Source of the DNA: Pseudomonadota bacterium
GTDB taxonomy: Bacteria; Pseudomonadota; Alphaproteobacteria; SP197
Assembly: GCA_027592745.1 (NCBI GenBank)
Contig: JAQCLG010000027.1
Span: forward strand, 1 to 32,000
Direction: 5' to 3'
DNA length: 32,000 bases
Position 1 is the first letter of the stretch. Each line of letters opens with the position of its first letter. Positions 13,792 to 23,905 of the stretch are shown piece after piece. Under the pieces are notes generated by a model. That model searched no databases and was not told where the DNA came from. It worked only from the letters and a program-made list of their open reading frames with translations. Position numbers and translations under genes: made by a program.

Positions 13792-15441
13792 ATGCGCAGT
13801 TCCTCGTGGTTCGCGCTTCTTCTCGTCGCCGCCGCCAACCTCACGGTCTGGGCCTGGATGGGCGAACCCGTTCAGGGCACCGCCTGGACGCGCCCGATGC
13901 AGGGCATTGCCTACAACCCCTCCGGGCTGCGCCAGGCGCCGGCCGACGGCCCCGACATGGTCGCGGCCGAGATCGACCGCGACCTCGACCTGATCGACCG
14001 CCGCTTCGACCGCGTCCGCACCTATTCGACCAACGACGATCTCGACCTGGTGCCCTATCTCGCCCGCCGTCATGGCCTGGACGTCACCCTGGGCGCCTGG
14101 CTCGACGGCGTGGACAGCCGCGACGCCCCCGAAATCGACCGCCTGATCGCCGCGACCGAGGACAACAGCAACGTCACGGCAGTCGTGGTCGGCAACGAAA
14201 CCCTGCTGCGCGGCGATCTCGATGCCGCCGGCCTGAAGCTCTGGCTCGACAAGGTGCGCGCCGAGGTCGATGTCCCGGTCGCCACGGCCGAGACCTGGCA
14301 TATCTGGCTCGACCATCCCGAACTTGCCGATTCGGTCGATTTCCTCGCCGTCCACATCCTGCCCTACTGGGAAGGCGTGCCGATCGACAACGCCATCGCC
14401 TTCATCGACGAACAGTACGGCCGCCTGCAGCAGGCCTTTCCGGGCAAGCGCATCGTGCTGACCGAGGTCGGCTGGCCTTCCGACGGCATCGTGATCGGCG
14501 ATGCCGTGCCGTCGCCGGCCAATCAGGCGCTGTTCCTGCGCAGCTTTGTTGCCTATGCCGAACGTACCGGCATCCCCTACTACCTGCTCGAAGCCTTCGA
14601 CCAGCCCTGGAAGGTCGCCGCCGAAGGCACGGCGGGTGGCTACTGGGGCATCTGGGACGAGGCCCGCGCGCCGAAGTTCTCCTGGTCCGAGGAGGTCAGC
14701 GACCTGCCGACATTGCCGGTCCTGGCCCTGCTCTCGACGCTGCTGGGCGGCCTTGCCGCCCTGGCATTCCTCTATCGCAACGCCATGAGCCTGGGCGGGC
14801 GCATTGCCTTCGCCGGACTGATCCAGGCCAGTGCCGGCCTTGCCGTATGGGGCAGCCATGTCGCGCTGGCGCGTTATCTCACCACCTGGTCGGCGGCCGG
14901 CTGGCTGGCGATCGGGGTGGGCGTCGCCCTGCTGATCGTGGTGCTGCTGGTCGAGGCCTTCGAGTGGTGCGACGTGCGCGCCCAGCCGCGCCTCCACCGC
15001 GCCTTCGGCGCCCTTTCGTTCGGGAGCCGGCCGCAGCGGCGCGTCTCGATCCATGTCCCGCTCCACAACGAGCCGCCCGACATGGTCGCCGACACGCTTA
15101 CCGCCCTGTCGCGCCTCGACTACGACAACTTCGAGGTCCTGGTGATCGACAACAACACCAAGGACCCCGCCGTATGGCGCCCGGTCGAGGCGTTCTGCGC
15201 TCATCTCGGCGAGCGCTTCCGCTTCATCCACATCGACCACTGCCCGGGCTTCAAGGCCGGCGCGCTCAACCGCGGCCTGGCGATCACCGATCCGACGGCC
15301 GAGATCGTCGCCGTGATCGACAGCGACTACATGGTCGCCCCGAACTGGCTTGCCGACCTGGTGCCCCATTTCGACCGCGACGAGGTCGCCTTCGTCCAGG
15401 CGCCCCAGGACTATCGCGACGGCGGCGAAAGCCTGTTCTAG
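13792..15441 (+). CDS. ndvB: GH17–GT2 beta-glucan synthase (NdvB-like), N-terminal part, cut by in-frame TAG
   Basis: The 549 residues comprise a membrane anchor (5–25), a GH17 domain (about 35–300) and further membrane helices (about 308–390). The GH17 domain has the probable acid/base Glu136 in VVVGNE and nucleophile Glu225 in LTEVGWPS. The first half of a GT2 synthase domain follows: IHVPLHNEP, VIDNN and the DxD-type VIDSDY (Asp510/Asp512). A TAG at 15439–15441 then interrupts the frame. The same frame continues without a shift to 16392 and supplies the missing ED and QxxRW motifs, giving about 866 residues. As far as I recall, that is close to Pseudomonas NdvB, which makes periplasmic cyclic beta-1,3-glucan from UDP-glucose. 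Alone, this fragment should lack polymerase activity, but its GH17 domain would be complete. The lost residue is probably Lys (AAG) or Gln (CAG). Confidence 0.85.
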   Translation: MRSSSWFALLLVAAANLTVWAWMGEPVQGTAWTRPMQGIAYNPSGLRQAPADGPDMVAAEIDRDLDLIDRRFDRVRTYSTNDDLDLVPYLARRHGLDVTLGAWLDGVDSRDAPEIDRLIAATEDNSNVTAVVVGNETLLRGDLDAAGLKLWLDKVRAEVDVPVATAETWHIWLDHPELADSVDFLAVHILPYWEGVPIDNAIAFIDEQYGRLQQAFPGKRIVLTEVGWPSDGIVIGDAVPSPANQALFLRSFVAYAERTGIPYYLLEAFDQPWKVAAEGTAGGYWGIWDEARAPKFSWSEEVSDLPTLPVLALLSTLLGGLAALAFLYRNAMSLGGRIAFAGLIQASAGLAVWGSHVALARYLTTWSAAGWLAIGVGVALLIVVLLVEAFEWCDVRAQPRLHRAFGALSFGSRPQRRVSIHVPLHNEPPDMVADTLTALSRLDYDNFEVLVIDNNTKDPAVWRPVEAFCAHLGERFRFIHIDHCPGFKAGALNRGLAITDPTAEIVAVIDSDYMVAPNWLADLVPHFDRDEVAFVQAPQDYRDGGESLF

Positions 15442-15444
15442 CGC

Positions 15445-16392
15445 ATGTGCTTCTGGGAATACGCGGGTTTCTTCCGCATCGGCATGGTCCAGCGCAACGA
15501 GCGCAACGCCGTCATCCAGCACGGCACGATGACCATGGTGCGGCGCACCGTGCTGGAGGACATCGGCGGCTGGTCGGAATGGTGCATCGCCGAGGATGCC
15601 GAACTGGGCCTGCGCCTCTACGAGGCCGGCTGGGACTCGGTCTATGTCCCGGCGAGCTACGGCCGCGGAGTCACGCCCGACGACTTCGCCGCCTACAAGG
15701 GCCAGCGCTTCCGCTGGGCCTACGGCTCGGTGCAGATCGTCAAGAAGCACCTGGCGGCACTCTTCCGTCCCGGTGTCACGCGGCTGACCGGCGCCCAGCG
15801 CTACCAGTTCCTGGCCGGCTGGCTGCCCTGGTTCGCCGACGGGCTGAACGTGCTGTGTTCGGTGCTGGGGCTGGTCTGGACCTTCCAGGCGATCTTCTTT
15901 GCCAAGGTCTTCGACTTCCCCTTCATCGCCGCCATCGCGCTTGCGATCCTGCTGTTTGCCTTCAAGGTCGCCAAGACTGTCATGCTCTACCGCGCGCGGG
16001 TCGACTGCACCCTGGGCGAGGTGCTGGGCGCCTCGGTCGCCGGCCTGGCGCTCTCCTACACCGTGGCCAAGGCGATCTTCCTCGGCATCGTCACCTCGGG
16101 CCGGCCCTTCCTGCGCACGCCCAAGTGCGAAAACCAGCCCGCCCTTGTGCGCGCGCTGGTCGCGGTGCGCGAGGAGGCGGTCTTCATGGCCCTGTTGCTG
16201 GGCGGTTCGGTCGGCATGCTGGTGGTCCACGCCGACGACGGCATCGTGCCGATCCTCTGGGCGGCCTTCCTGGCGGTCCAGGCCCTGCCGTTCGGCGCCG
16301 CCATCGTGCTCTCGGTGATCGCGACCCTGCCGGCCCGCCGCCGTGCCGTGTCGGTCACCCGCCCCGCAGGCGAAGAAGCCCAGCGGGCCTGA
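15445..16392 (+). pseudogene. GH17–GT2 beta-glucan synthase (NdvB-like), C-terminal part after the TAG
   Basis: This continues the preceding frame directly: TAG CGC ATG. Its 315 residues hold the rest of the GT2 catalytic core, AEDAELGLRLYEAGW (Glu601/Asp602 in full-length numbering) and QRFRW (Gln638, Arg641, Trp642). At least four membrane helices follow, then a basic tail. The ATG three bases after the TAG could permit stop–restart translation, but that methionine (RMCFWEY) lies inside the conserved domain and no ribosome-binding site precedes it. It is best read as the severed half of one gene, kept in undamaged coding condition. The GMC oxidoreductase gene starts 10 bp after its TGA. Confidence 0.75.
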
Positions 16393-16402
16393 GGATTCGG
16401 TC

Positions 16403-17914
16403 ATGTTCATCGACGCCCGTCAGCTCGATGACGGCAGCGCCATCGCATGCGATGTCGCCATCATCGGGGCCGGCGCCTTCGGCATCACCCTGGCGCGCGC
16501 CCTGCGCGGCAGTGGCCGCGATGTCGTCCTGATCGAAAGCGGCGGCCTCGACTTCGAGGACGAGACCCAGGCACTCTACGAGGGCGCCACCGACGGCATC
16601 GCCTACAACCTCGATACCGCCCGCCTGCGCTATTTCGGCGGCAGCACCAACCACTGGGGCGGCTGGTGCCGCCCGATCGAGCCGGAGGACTTCGAGGCGC
16701 GCGCCTGGGTGCCCCATTCGGGCTGGCCGGTCAGCCGCGCCGACCTCGATCCGTATTATCCCCGGGCCCAGGAGATCTGCGAACTGGGCGCCTTCGACTA
16801 CAGCGTCGAAAACCTTGCCCGCCTCGGCCCGCCGCTGGGCCTGCCCGGCGGCAAGATCGCCGATGGCTTCTTCCAGTTCAGCCCGCCGACCCGCTTCGGC
16901 GAGCGTTACCGCGACGACATCGCCAATGCCGCCGACATCCGCTGCCTGCTCAACGCCAATGTCACCGAGATCGTGGCGGCCCACGACGCCGGCTCGATCG
17001 CACGCCTCGATGTCGCGACGCTGACCGGCAAGCGCTTCACGGTGACGGCGGGAACCTACGTGCTGGCCGCCGGCGGCATCGAGAACGCCCGCCTGCTGCT
17101 TGCCTCCCGTTCGGTCGCCCCGGCGGGCCTTGCCAACGACCGCGACCTGGTCGGGCGCTACTTCATGGAACACCCGATCTTCGGCCCCATCGCCTCCTGG
17201 ATCTGCGATGCGCCCGAGCGGATCGCCCCCTACTACGGCAGCTACACCGCGCTGGGCGATGCCGTGGCGCGCGGCTGCCTCTCGATGACGCCCGAGTACA
17301 TGGCCCGCGAAGGCCGGCTCAACACGATCTTCACCTTCACGCCCAACGACGACGTGCGCTACCTGCCGGGCCGCCCCGCCGAGGACGGCCCGATCCCGCT
17401 CGAGACCGAGATGCTGACCCTGCTTGCCGGGGTCGAGCCGGGTGTCGAGCACACCGGCAAGCGGGTCTACATGGGCTGCGGCACCGAGCAGGCACCCAAC
17501 CCCGACAGCCGCGTCACGCTGGCCGACGAGGTCGACGCCCTGGGCATGCCGCGCACGCGGCTGGCCTGGCAAATCACCGAAGGCGACCGCGAGAGCCTGC
17601 TGGCCAACGTCGCGACCCTGGCGGCGGCCATGGGTGCCTGGGGCCATGCCCGCCTGCGCCGCATCGTGCCGGCCGATTTCGCCTGGAACGACATCGACAT
17701 GTTCTGGGCGCACCATCACATGGGCACCACGCGTATGGCCGCCCAAGCCAGCCAGGGTGTCGTCGACGCCAACCTCAAGGTCCATGGCCTGGGCAACCTC
17801 TTCATCGGCGGCAGTTCGGTGTGGACCACCGGCTGCGGTGCGACCAACCCGACGCTCTCGATCGTCGCCTTCGCCCTGCGCCTGGCCGAACGCCTGCGCG
17901 CCGGGGAGGCCTGA
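16403..17914 (+). CDS. GMC-family FAD-dependent oxidoreductase (membrane sugar/alcohol dehydrogenase-like large subunit)
   Basis: The 503-residue protein has a Rossmann FAD-binding motif, VAIIGAGAFGITLARAL (GxGxxG at 22–27). It also has the substrate-side STNHWGGWCRP segment and the C-terminal GMC signature HHHMGTTRM (catalytic His within 437–439), with a final FAD contact in NLFIGGSSVWTTGCGATNPT. It lacks a signal peptide. It belongs with the large subunits of membrane-bound fructose, sorbitol and gluconate dehydrogenases, which oxidise sugars or polyols and pass electrons to a cytochrome c or quinone. A GAGGA ribosome-binding site precedes the ATG at 16403. It follows the glucan synthase by 10 bp and precedes the Tat-signal small protein by 2 bp, so the three form one operon. 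The substrate is unknown. Confidence 0.88.
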   Translation: MFIDARQLDDGSAIACDVAIIGAGAFGITLARALRGSGRDVVLIESGGLDFEDETQALYEGATDGIAYNLDTARLRYFGGSTNHWGGWCRPIEPEDFEARAWVPHSGWPVSRADLDPYYPRAQEICELGAFDYSVENLARLGPPLGLPGGKIADGFFQFSPPTRFGERYRDDIANAADIRCLLNANVTEIVAAHDAGSIARLDVATLTGKRFTVTAGTYVLAAGGIENARLLLASRSVAPAGLANDRDLVGRYFMEHPIFGPIASWICDAPERIAPYYGSYTALGDAVARGCLSMTPEYMAREGRLNTIFTFTPNDDVRYLPGRPAEDGPIPLETEMLTLLAGVEPGVEHTGKRVYMGCGTEQAPNPDSRVTLADEVDALGMPRTRLAWQITEGDRESLLANVATLAAAMGAWGHARLRRIVPADFAWNDIDMFWAHHHMGTTRMAAQASQGVVDANLKVHGLGNLFIGGSSVWTTGCGATNPTLSIVAFALRLAERLRAGEA

Positions 17915-17916
17915 AC

Positions 17917-18309
17917 ATGTCCTGGTCGCGGCGCGACATCCTGATCGGCGCGGGACTTTCGGCCGCCCTGGGCGGTGCCGTGCTCTGGCGCCTATCGCTG
18001 GACGAGGGACCGGGGCCGACGGTTGCCCTGGTCGACCGTGCCGCTGCCGCGCGCATCGGCCGGCGCCTGCTCGAAGCAGCACGGCCGCCGGCCGACGGTT
18101 CGGCTGCGCGCCAGCGCATCGACACCCTGATCGCGACCCTTCCGGCCGGCACCCGGGCGGGCGACCTGCGCCCGGCGCTTGCCGACTGGGTCGCGGCAGA
18201 CTTCGAGGAAGGCCGCATGGTCGAGGTCGAGGGCTGGTATCTCACCCGCACGGAAGCCGATCTGGCGATCCTGGCGGCGCTTGAGGAGGCCGGTGCTCAG
18301 ACCGGCTGA
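17917..18309 (+). CDS. Small Tat-exported protein, probable small subunit of the GMC dehydrogenase
   Basis: The 130-residue product begins MSWSRRDILIGAGLSAALGG, a twin-arginine signal (S-R-R-D-I-L) followed by a hydrophobic stretch. A helical, charged domain follows and ends in GWYLTRTEADLAILAAL, a W-x-L-(S/T)-x-T-E-A pattern I associate with small partners of GMC oxidoreductases. In gluconate and fructose dehydrogenases the small subunit carries the Tat signal and takes the signal-less FAD subunit across the membrane with it; the same is inferred here. Its ribosome-binding site (GGGGAGG) lies within the end of the oxidoreductase gene, implying coupled translation. Its last 13 bp overlap the end of the convergent transporter gene. 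Confidence 0.8.
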   Translation: MSWSRRDILIGAGLSAALGGAVLWRLSLDEGPGPTVALVDRAAAARIGRRLLEAARPPADGSAARQRIDTLIATLPAGTRAGDLRPALADWVAADFEEGRMVEVEGWYLTRTEADLAILAALEEAGAQTG

Positions 18310-19454
18310 AGCGGCCAGGCCCAGGGGATCAGGACCAGCGCCAGGCCGACGATGATGACTTCCAGCGGCAGGCCCATGCGCCAGTAGTCGCCGAAACGGT
18401 AGCCGCCCGGTCCCATGATCAGGGTGTTGTTCTGGTGCCCGATGGGCGTCAGGAAGGCACAGGAGGCGCCCACGGCCACGGCCATCAGGAACGGGTCGGT
18501 CGCCACGCCCAGGGCGCTCGCCACGCCCACCGCGATGGGCGCTATGACGATGGCCGTGGCTGCGTTGTTCATGATGTCCGAGAGCGTCATGGTCACGATC
18601 AGGACGACCGCGAGCAGCGCCAGTGGCGGCGCACCCGACATGACCGTAAGCAGCCCGTTCGCCAGCAGCACGGTGGTGCCCGTGGCTTCCAGCGCCCCGC
18701 CGACCGGGATCATCGCGCCAAGCAGGACCAGCACGGGCCAGTCGATCGCTTCGTAGAGTTCGCGCAGGTTGACCATGCCGAGCAGCACCATAGCGAGCAT
18801 CGCCAGCGAGAAGGTGATGGTGATCGGGGCAAGGCCGATGGCGGCCGCGATCACGGCAGTAGCGAAGATCGCGACCGCGGGCAGGGCACGGCGGCGGGCG
18901 CTGACGGCGATCTTGCGTTCTGCCAGCGGCAGCAGACCCAGGCGCGCCAGCGCCGAGGTGGCGTGGTCGCGCTCGCCCTGCAGCAGCAGGATGTCGCCGG
19001 CCTGGAAGCGGAAGCTGCGCAGCCTGCCGCGTGTCGGCTGGCCCTGGCGCGAGACCGCCAGCAGGTTGAGGTCGTAGCGGCTGCCAAGGCGCAGGCTGCT
19101 CGGCGTATGGCCCTCGATGCGGCTGCCGGTCGGCACGATCGCCTCCAGCATGACGACGTCCTCGGACTTCAGGGCTTCGACGGCCTGCGACTTCTCGCCG
19201 ACCAGCTCCAGGTCCAGGTTGTCCACCGCCTTGGCCATGCCCTCGGGCGAGGCCGAGAGCATGAGCACGTCGCCGGCGCGTACATGGACATAGCGGGCGG
19301 CGCTGAGCATGCGGTGGCCATCGCGGATCAGGGCCACGATCTGGACATTGCTGTCGGTGATCTTCTGGTCGAGTTCGTGCAGCGCTACGCCGACCGCCGT
19401 CGACTTCTCGGGCACGACGGCTTCGGTGATGTAGTCCTCGATGGCGCTGAGATC
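18297..19454 (-). pseudogene. SLC13/DASS-type transporter, C-terminal part (TrkA-C domains plus second membrane half)
   Basis: This 385-codon frame continues directly from the TAG at 19457–19455. It opens DLSAIEDYITEAVVPEKST, the start of the first TrkA-C (RCK_C) domain. A second TrkA-C domain follows (LRLGSRYDLNLLAVSRQG…FQAGDILLLQGE). The second membrane half has SDIMNNAATAIVIAP and AFLTPIGHQNNTLIMGPGGY, the conserved ion/substrate-binding loops of the family. There is no ribosome-binding site or credible start close to the break; the first GTG/ATG lies within the domain. The coding quality is undamaged to the TGA at 18297. The end overlaps the convergent Tat-protein gene by 13 bp. Confidence 0.8.
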
Positions 19455-20087
19455 CTAGGGAACGTTGCGCTTGCGTACCGAGGCCGGCAGCAGGTGCCAG
19501 CCGATCAGGGCAACGAAGGCGACGCCGACAATAGCGATGGGAAGGCCGACGGGCGTGAAGTCGAACATGCCGAAGGGCGCCCCGCCCGTGTTGGTGCGGT
19601 AGGAGGCGATGATGACGTTGGGCGGCGTCCCGATCATCGTGGCCAGGCCGCCCAGGATCGAGCCGAAGGCGAGCGGCATCAGGATCAACCCGGGCGAACG
19701 CTGGACCTTGACGCAGGACTGCAGCGCCACGGGCAGCAGCAGGGCCAATGCCGCGACATTGTTCATGAAGGCCGAAAGGAATGCTGCAACGCCGGCCAGC
19801 ACGGCGACATGAAGCGCCGGGCTGGCGCTGGCCCGCACGACCAGGGCCGCGATCGCGTCGACCGCCCCGGAATTGGCCAGCGCCCGGCTGATCACGAGCA
19901 CCGCCAGCACCGTCACCACCGCGGGGTGGCCGAAACCGTCGAAGGCGTCGGCGGCGGGAACCACACCGGCCACCACTGCCGCCATCAGGCCAGCGAAGGC
20001 GACGACGTCGTAGCGCCAGCGGCCCCAGATGAAGAACACCGTGACGCCCAGCACGATCAGGCAGATGGCAATCTGGGGGCCGCTCAT
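19455..20087 (-). CDS. SLC13/DASS-type anion transporter, N-terminal part, cut by in-frame TAG
   Basis: The 210 residues form the first membrane half, with about six helices and the family loops SAFMNNVAALALLLPVA and GGLATMIGTPPNVII. It ends at SVRKRNVP, exactly where the cytosolic TrkA-C insert should begin. The TAG at 19455–19457 is in the same frame as the downstream part, giving a 596-codon gene in total if read through. SLC13-type carriers with TrkA-C inserts import sulfate, dicarboxylates or related anions with sodium. The stop most likely replaced Glu (GAG) or Gln (CAG). It lies 30 bp after the aldehyde dehydrogenase stop on the same strand, so the pair is probably co-transcribed. The ribosome-binding site before the ATG at 20087 is weak. 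Confidence 0.8.
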   Translation of the reverse strand: MSGPQIAICLIVLGVTVFFIWGRWRYDVVAFAGLMAAVVAGVVPAADAFDGFGHPAVVTVLAVLVISRALANSGAVDAIAALVVRASASPALHVAVLAGVAAFLSAFMNNVAALALLLPVALQSCVKVQRSPGLILMPLAFGSILGGLATMIGTPPNVIIASYRTNTGGAPFGMFDFTPVGLPIAIVGVAFVALIGWHLLPASVRKRNVP

Positions 20088-23227: not shown

Positions 23228-23905
23228 TTAGAGGATCGTGCCGTCTTCATCGATGGCGAAGACCGAACCCAGGCAGCCGGCGCTGATCGGCGCCAGGAAC
23301 TCGGCAAACAGCGGGTCGAGGTCGGTCACGGCCGCCAGCACGCCCACGACCCGGTACTCGACCACCAGCGGGCGGTAGATCAGCAGGGCATGGCTGTCGT
23401 TGATCTTGATGATCTGCAGGACCGGCTCGGGCGCAAAGGTGAGGCCCGGCGTCGCCAGGAGCGCACGGCGGCCTTCGACGATCCCGGGAGCCTCCTCCAG
23501 GTCCGCCAGCGGCGTATAGAGGCGCTGTGCCACCAGGTTGCCCTGGGTATCGAGCAGCACCAGGCTGGTGCGGTGGACCTCACCGTGGATGTTCAGCACG
23601 ACGCGGTAGGCGACCGGCGAGACAGAAGTCTGGTTGAGCAGGGTTGCCAGCTCGACGCCGGCCAGTTCGCTGCGGCGCAGGAAGGTCTGCTCGAGATGGT
23701 CGGTCAGCGCGCGGGCGGCGATGCGGGTGATCGCCGTCTGCTCCTGGTTGAAGTTGTCGCGGTGACGGTCGACCGCCAGGGCGTCGAGCCAGGCGACGGC
23801 GATCGTCAGCACGACCATGGCCGCCGTGCCGATCAGGGCCACGGCCCATGTGGTCGCCCGCAGGCTGCGCGACGGGCGCGCAAATGTCGGAGTTTCGACC
23901 GCCAT
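23228..23905 (-). CDS. Sensor histidine kinase, N-terminal part (first helix and sensor half), cut by in-frame TAA
   Basis: The 225 residues have a short cytosolic start, a membrane helix (about 20–40: ATTWAVALIGTAAMVVLTIAVAWL) and a periplasmic double-Cache-like sensor segment (LVLLDTQGNLVAQRLY…GVLAAVTDLDPLFAEF). It ends DEDGTIL. The TAA at 23228–23230 sits within that sensor domain, and the frame resumes at once as SSEADTVD. A tyrosine codon (TAC or TAT) or Gln/Lys/Glu would each become TAA by one base change. Read through, the gene would be about 727 residues, a normal sensor kinase. No response regulator gene is adjacent. ATG 23905 was preferred to one at 23965 because it precedes the helix directly; the ribosome-binding site is weak. 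Confidence 0.75.
   Translation of the reverse strand: MAVETPTFARPSRSLRATTWAVALIGTAAMVVLTIAVAWLDALAVDRHRDNFNQEQTAITRIAARALTDHLEQTFLRRSELAGVELATLLNQTSVSPVAYRVVLNIHGEVHRTSLVLLDTQGNLVAQRLYTPLADLEEAPGIVEGRRALLATPGLTFAPEPVLQIIKINDSHALLIYRPLVVEYRVVGVLAAVTDLDPLFAEFLAPISAGCLGSVFAIDEDGTIL

Follow-up and report, generated by a model that had tools for sequence, protein, structure and literature searches.

Three adjacent genes at positions 13792 to 18309 of the window (the whole 32,000-nucleotide stretch of alphaproteobacterial DNA analyzed here) may form an operon that makes and oxidatively modifies a periplasmic beta-glucan, a reading to which a probability of about 0.42 was assigned. The genes lie on the same strand in the order GH17-GT2 glucan synthase, GMC flavoenzyme, and small Tat-signal protein.

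The synthase gene (13792 to 16392, plus strand) comprises 866 codons, the GMC gene (16403 to 17914, plus strand) encodes 503 aa, and the small gene (17917 to 18309, plus strand) encodes 130 aa. The genes are separated by 10 bp (16392 to 16403) and by 2 bp (17914 to 17917), and these coordinates confirmed the three closely spaced genes of the preliminary description, which was made from the sequence alone. The unit is flanked by a divergent alpha-2-macroglobulin-like gene upstream and a convergent SLC13 permease gene downstream, and therefore consists of these three genes only. A scan for promoters and terminators gave nothing informative. The same-genus genome G001 has an identical three-gene layout and synteny, spread over two contigs, and comparison of the two genomes shows purifying selection on each of the three genes (dN/dS 0.16–0.24; GMC 0.16–0.20, small gene 0.24). 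The synteny kept in the genus and the selection on every gene argue that the operon is more than a chance arrangement.

The GT2 domain of the synthase was above the Pfam cut-off and the GH17 domain was just under it (26.4 vs 28.2 bits); the GH17 region matched solved GH17 beta-1,3-glucanosyltransferases (E 5e-27). The motifs GNE (residue 134) and LTEVGWP (223) supply the GH17 glutamates, and DSD (510), ED (601), and QRFRW (638) are those of GT2. Candidate transmembrane segments lie on both sides of GH17, and the hydropathy is as expected if GH17 faces the periplasm and GT2 the cytoplasm. The G001 synthase has an intact frame and is 82% identical. Domains, motifs, and hydropathy agree in placing the predicted window protein in the NdvB/Orphan GH17-GT2 family, whose members are the proposed makers of cyclic beta-(1,3)-glucan (PMC10237404). 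The NdvB and pseudomonad 'Orphan' synthases have the same two domains, GH17 in the periplasm and a QxxRW-bearing GT2 in the cytoplasm, and the pseudomonad gene is solitary, upstream of dapE (PMC10237404), whereas the window synthase heads an operon with a flavoenzyme. An alternative two-gene arrangement, in which a GH17-GT2 gene is followed by that of a second GH17-like membrane protein, was observed in other alphaproteobacteria (L117, G051:C12; L119, G058:C31).

The GMC gene product had Pfam GMC domains above the cut-off. By sequence profiles and by the fold of the AF2 model, its closest solved relatives were the alpha subunit of Burkholderia FAD-dependent glucose dehydrogenase (FAD-GDH) and the large subunit of Gluconobacter fructose dehydrogenase (FDH), and pyranose and C-glycoside oxidases were also near. 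The enzyme thus sits in the sugar-oxidising branch of FAD-glucose/fructose dehydrogenases and pyranose oxidases. Burkholderia cepacia FAD-GDH (gamma-alpha-beta; PDB 6a2u, 8grj; PMC6719666) and Gluconobacter FDH (7w2j) likewise combine a signal-less GMC catalytic subunit with a small Tat-signal partner, and they share with the window GMC the catalytic His/Asn region and an equivalent His in the FAD region. The small subunits of FAD-GDH/FDH-type enzymes have been described as hitchhikers (PMC6719666). Unlike these enzymes, the window pair has no 3Fe-4S cysteine cluster, no multihaem cytochrome subunit, and a small subunit for which searches of limited sensitivity showed no significant similarity to theirs. 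The cysteine cluster (Cys212, 218, and 222 as 3Fe-4S ligands in Burkholderia FAD-GDH; PMC6719666) was absent from the window GMC and from 54/54 relatives checked. No cytochrome c gene adjoins the window operon, as had already been noticed, and no recurrent cytochrome c neighbour was found elsewhere, a CxxCH protein being encoded within 4 genes in 2/73 loci. Membership in the direct-electron-transfer group of FAD-GDH/FDH was rejected on the missing cysteine cluster and cytochrome subunit, and the comparison was kept as 'works like'. The membrane-bound sugar dehydrogenase scheme proposed earlier was supported as to the signal-less GMC with a small Tat partner, and not supported as an equation with those enzymes. 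Pyranose 2-oxidase, C-glycoside oxidase, and FAD-dependent glycoside oxidoreductases (PMC4650693) are further sugar- or glycoside-oxidising GMC enzymes, with about 16–20% identity between the window GMC and the pyranose 2-oxidase/C-glycoside oxidase family in fold alignments. By analogy with the pyranose and glycoside oxidases, oxidation of glucosyl residues at C2 or C3 by the window enzyme is plausible. We know of no member of the pyranose 2-oxidase/C-glycoside oxidase family encoded beside a glucan synthase.

The small protein carries a twin-arginine Tat-type signal (MSWSRRDILIGAGLSAALGGAVLW) and is a putative hitchhiker subunit of the GMC enzyme, which starts at the FAD domain without a signal peptide of its own; both features had been read correctly in the preliminary description. 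The model of the small protein has a mostly helical domain (pLDDT of 90 or more) and a poorly modelled signal helix. In 52 members, the only Pfam or NCBIfam matches were to Tat-signal models, apart from weak single hits here and there. A PDB sequence search of limited sensitivity gave no significant match (FdhS at E 0.47), and a fold search, the sensitivity of which may have been cut by the poorly modelled signal helix, gave nothing below E 0.7. As a candidate identity, Gluconate_2-dh3 (PF13618) gave no match to the small protein in a search of limited sensitivity, nor to anything elsewhere in the window genome.

In a profile search, the small protein adjoined this GMC in 72/80 loci, on either side of it. 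The loci came from Pseudomonadota, Bacteroidota, Cyanobacteriota, Gemmatimonadota, Actinomycetota, Myxococcota, and other phyla. That the two genes stay together while their order varies argues strongly for an enzyme of two subunits, and a conserved GW..S.TEA region could form part of the contact between them. Two arginines followed by a hydrophobic stretch were present in 66 of 71 small proteins, and the window genome has a TatC gene. The presence of the signal on the small partner only supports Tat hitchhiking, and export of the pair by Tat is predicted with good confidence. The GMC/small pair is a widespread, undescribed family, and its small subunit is without a Pfam or NCBIfam model. One locus (L113, G197:C88:26000-45000) contains two such pairs 10 kb apart, separated by acyl-carrier, HAD-like, and MBOAT-like genes (named from sequence only), and another (L202, CADEGR010000020.1) has three tandem genes of the window GMC family with no recognised small partner.

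Across 289 alphaproteobacterial genomes, the GMC was found in 31, the synthase in 56, and both in 16. This co-occurrence was above expectation (16/31 vs 40/258, Fisher p 2e-5, uncorrected for kinship or genome size), and neither family was found in 14 members of the taxonomic family outside the genus at the thresholds used. The two genes were adjacent in the window genome only, and in 0 of the 15 other genomes with both, on which ground general synteny of the three families was rejected in Alphaproteobacteria. The same gene order (GH17-GT2, GMC, small) was found in two gammaproteobacterial metagenome-assembled genomes (MAGs), Methylococcaceae UBA2778 (L176) and CSMAG_2845 (L187), and four further gammaproteobacterial GMC loci had no synthase nearby. 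The three-gene linkage expected earlier was thus recovered in G001 and the two gammaproteobacteria, and not as a general synteny. It is known in two lineages only, the window genus and a separate gammaproteobacterial lineage; the majority of GMC/small pairs have unrelated neighbours and no adjacent glucan synthase. Parvibaculum indicum DSM 25305, a culturable carrier of the pair, encodes GH17-GT2 at a separate site. For the linked GMCs, a single origin was rejected when those of L176/L187 were constrained with the window GMC (p-AU 1e-137). The L176/L187 synthases grouped with unlinked gammaproteobacterial synthases in the tree, and a single origin of the linkage was not shown for the synthase. 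Since the trees do not group the two lineages, the operon has apparently arisen on at least two occasions. Such recurrence favours a functional link in the two lineages, though most pairs serve elsewhere. No GMC enzyme tied to a glucan synthase turned up in searches of the literature.

Unlike the NdvB/'Orphan' comparators, the window synthase has an in-frame TAG (15439 to 15441, plus strand), which was overlooked in the preliminary description. As printed, the gene encodes 549 + 316 residues, so that the earlier claim of a GH17-GT2 synthase is upheld for the identity of the domains and not for a single intact protein. A true nonsense mutation, by which the synthase and hence the pathway would be decaying in the species, would fit the position of the TAG (residue 550) between the DxD and the ED/QxxRW motifs essential to GT2, and the adjoining SLC13 permease gene is interrupted too. 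It was nevertheless judged very improbable: the G001 gene is intact with AAG at this position, and synthase dN/dS against G001 is unchanged past the stop (0.21 before, 0.20 after). Moreover, 17 readthrough-like stops of all three kinds (7 TAG, 6 TAA, 4 TGA; some are ordinary gene junctions) were counted in 393 kb of the window MAG (G000; the window and L136-L155), whereas G001 had none in 37 kb and other alphaproteobacteria had 1 in 118 kb (4.3 per 100 kb vs 0 to 0.85 in controls). Recoding of TAG was rejected, as no CTA-anticodon tRNA was found among the 37 tRNAs of the window genome, TAG, TAA, and TGA all interrupt genes, and TAG terminates other genes. On the intact G001 frame with its AAG, the even dN/dS across the stop, and the excess of all three stops, an assembly error is the probable cause, likelier than decay or recoding. 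In the SLC13-type permease gene (18297 to 20087, minus strand) the in-frame TAG is at 19455 to 19457, where G001 has GCC in an intact 596-aa frame. A third readthrough-like stop (TAA, 23228 to 23230, minus strand) has coding signal on both sides and adjoins a PAS-histidine kinase gene. The excess of in-frame stops calls for caution with gene-loss claims from this assembly.

The GMC/small pair may be a self-contained periplasmic dehydrogenase of general use for sugars or alcohols, able to move from locus to locus; beside the synthase it would have a promoter or niche in common with it, and would oxidise free sugars or other alcohols and not the glucan. GMC homologues in other bacteria act on glucose or small alcohols (PMC12542777, PMC8630023), and the pair occurs in many contexts, mostly without a synthase; set against this are the same-order linkage to GH17-GT2 repeated in two lineages and the isolation of the three-gene unit on both sides. 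A sugar dehydrogenase of this kind that simply sits next to the synthase is almost as probable as glucan oxidation. It is improbable that the flavoenzyme acts on a different glycan or glycolipid of the envelope, e.g., another exopolysaccharide, produced or trimmed close to the glucan: several loci place the pair among glycosyltransferase and nucleotide-sugar genes (clusters judged from sequence), but no such genes adjoin the window operon. The synthesis and oxidation of a glucan by the operon was preferred because the tight, isolated unit is kept in the genus with selection on all its genes, the pair is conserved across loci with a Tat-type signal, the window genome encodes TatC, and the GMC is nearest to sugar dehydrogenases and pyranose/C-glycoside oxidases. 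The recurrence of the gene order in L176/L187, with a single origin rejected or not shown, and the co-occurrence of both genes in alphaproteobacteria and their joint absence, at the thresholds used, from the rest of the taxonomic family point the same way. Against the operon model count the non-adjacency in 15 other alphaproteobacteria, the mostly unrelated contexts of the pair, the broken synthase frame as sequenced, and the restriction of the linkage to two lineages.

According to the operon model, the GH17-GT2 inner-membrane protein would use UDP-glucose at the cytoplasmic face to build a glucose polymer, and in the periplasm its GH17 domain would cut, branch, or cyclise this beta-(1,3)-glucan, as expected from the family. 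The GMC enzyme would fold with FAD in the cytoplasm and bind the small protein, a pairing supported by the conserved adjacency, and the complex would cross the membrane via Tat on the twin-arginine signal of the small protein. In the periplasm, the flavoenzyme would oxidise a hydroxyl group on a glucosyl residue, either in the glucan or in oligosaccharides that GH17 sets free, to keto-sugar or lactone ends. Electrons would pass to quinone, a soluble carrier, or oxygen; they would not take a route through a 3Fe-4S cluster to a multihaem cytochrome serving this enzyme. Its place in the sugar-specific branch of GMC enzymes and the recurrent linkage to a synthase suggest, tentatively, that the glucan or its fragments are the substrate. 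The most far-reaching version, in which a synthesis-and-oxidation operon was assembled independently in Alphaproteobacteria and Gammaproteobacteria and an undescribed, phylum-spanning two-subunit flavoenzyme yields a keto- or lactone-bearing periplasmic beta-glucan, is doubtful.

Periplasmic glucans have been linked to osmoadaptation, biofilm drug tolerance, and host interaction, and to our knowledge no enzymatic oxidation of them has been described. The operon combines parts of known kinds, an NdvB-type synthase and a GMC enzyme with a hitchhiker. If the coupling is true, a modified glucan is to be expected, and the enzyme responsible for it is identified. The glucan aside, the GMC/small pair represents a widespread family of predicted two-subunit periplasmic flavoenzymes, for whose Tat carrier subunit there is no Pfam or NCBIfam model.
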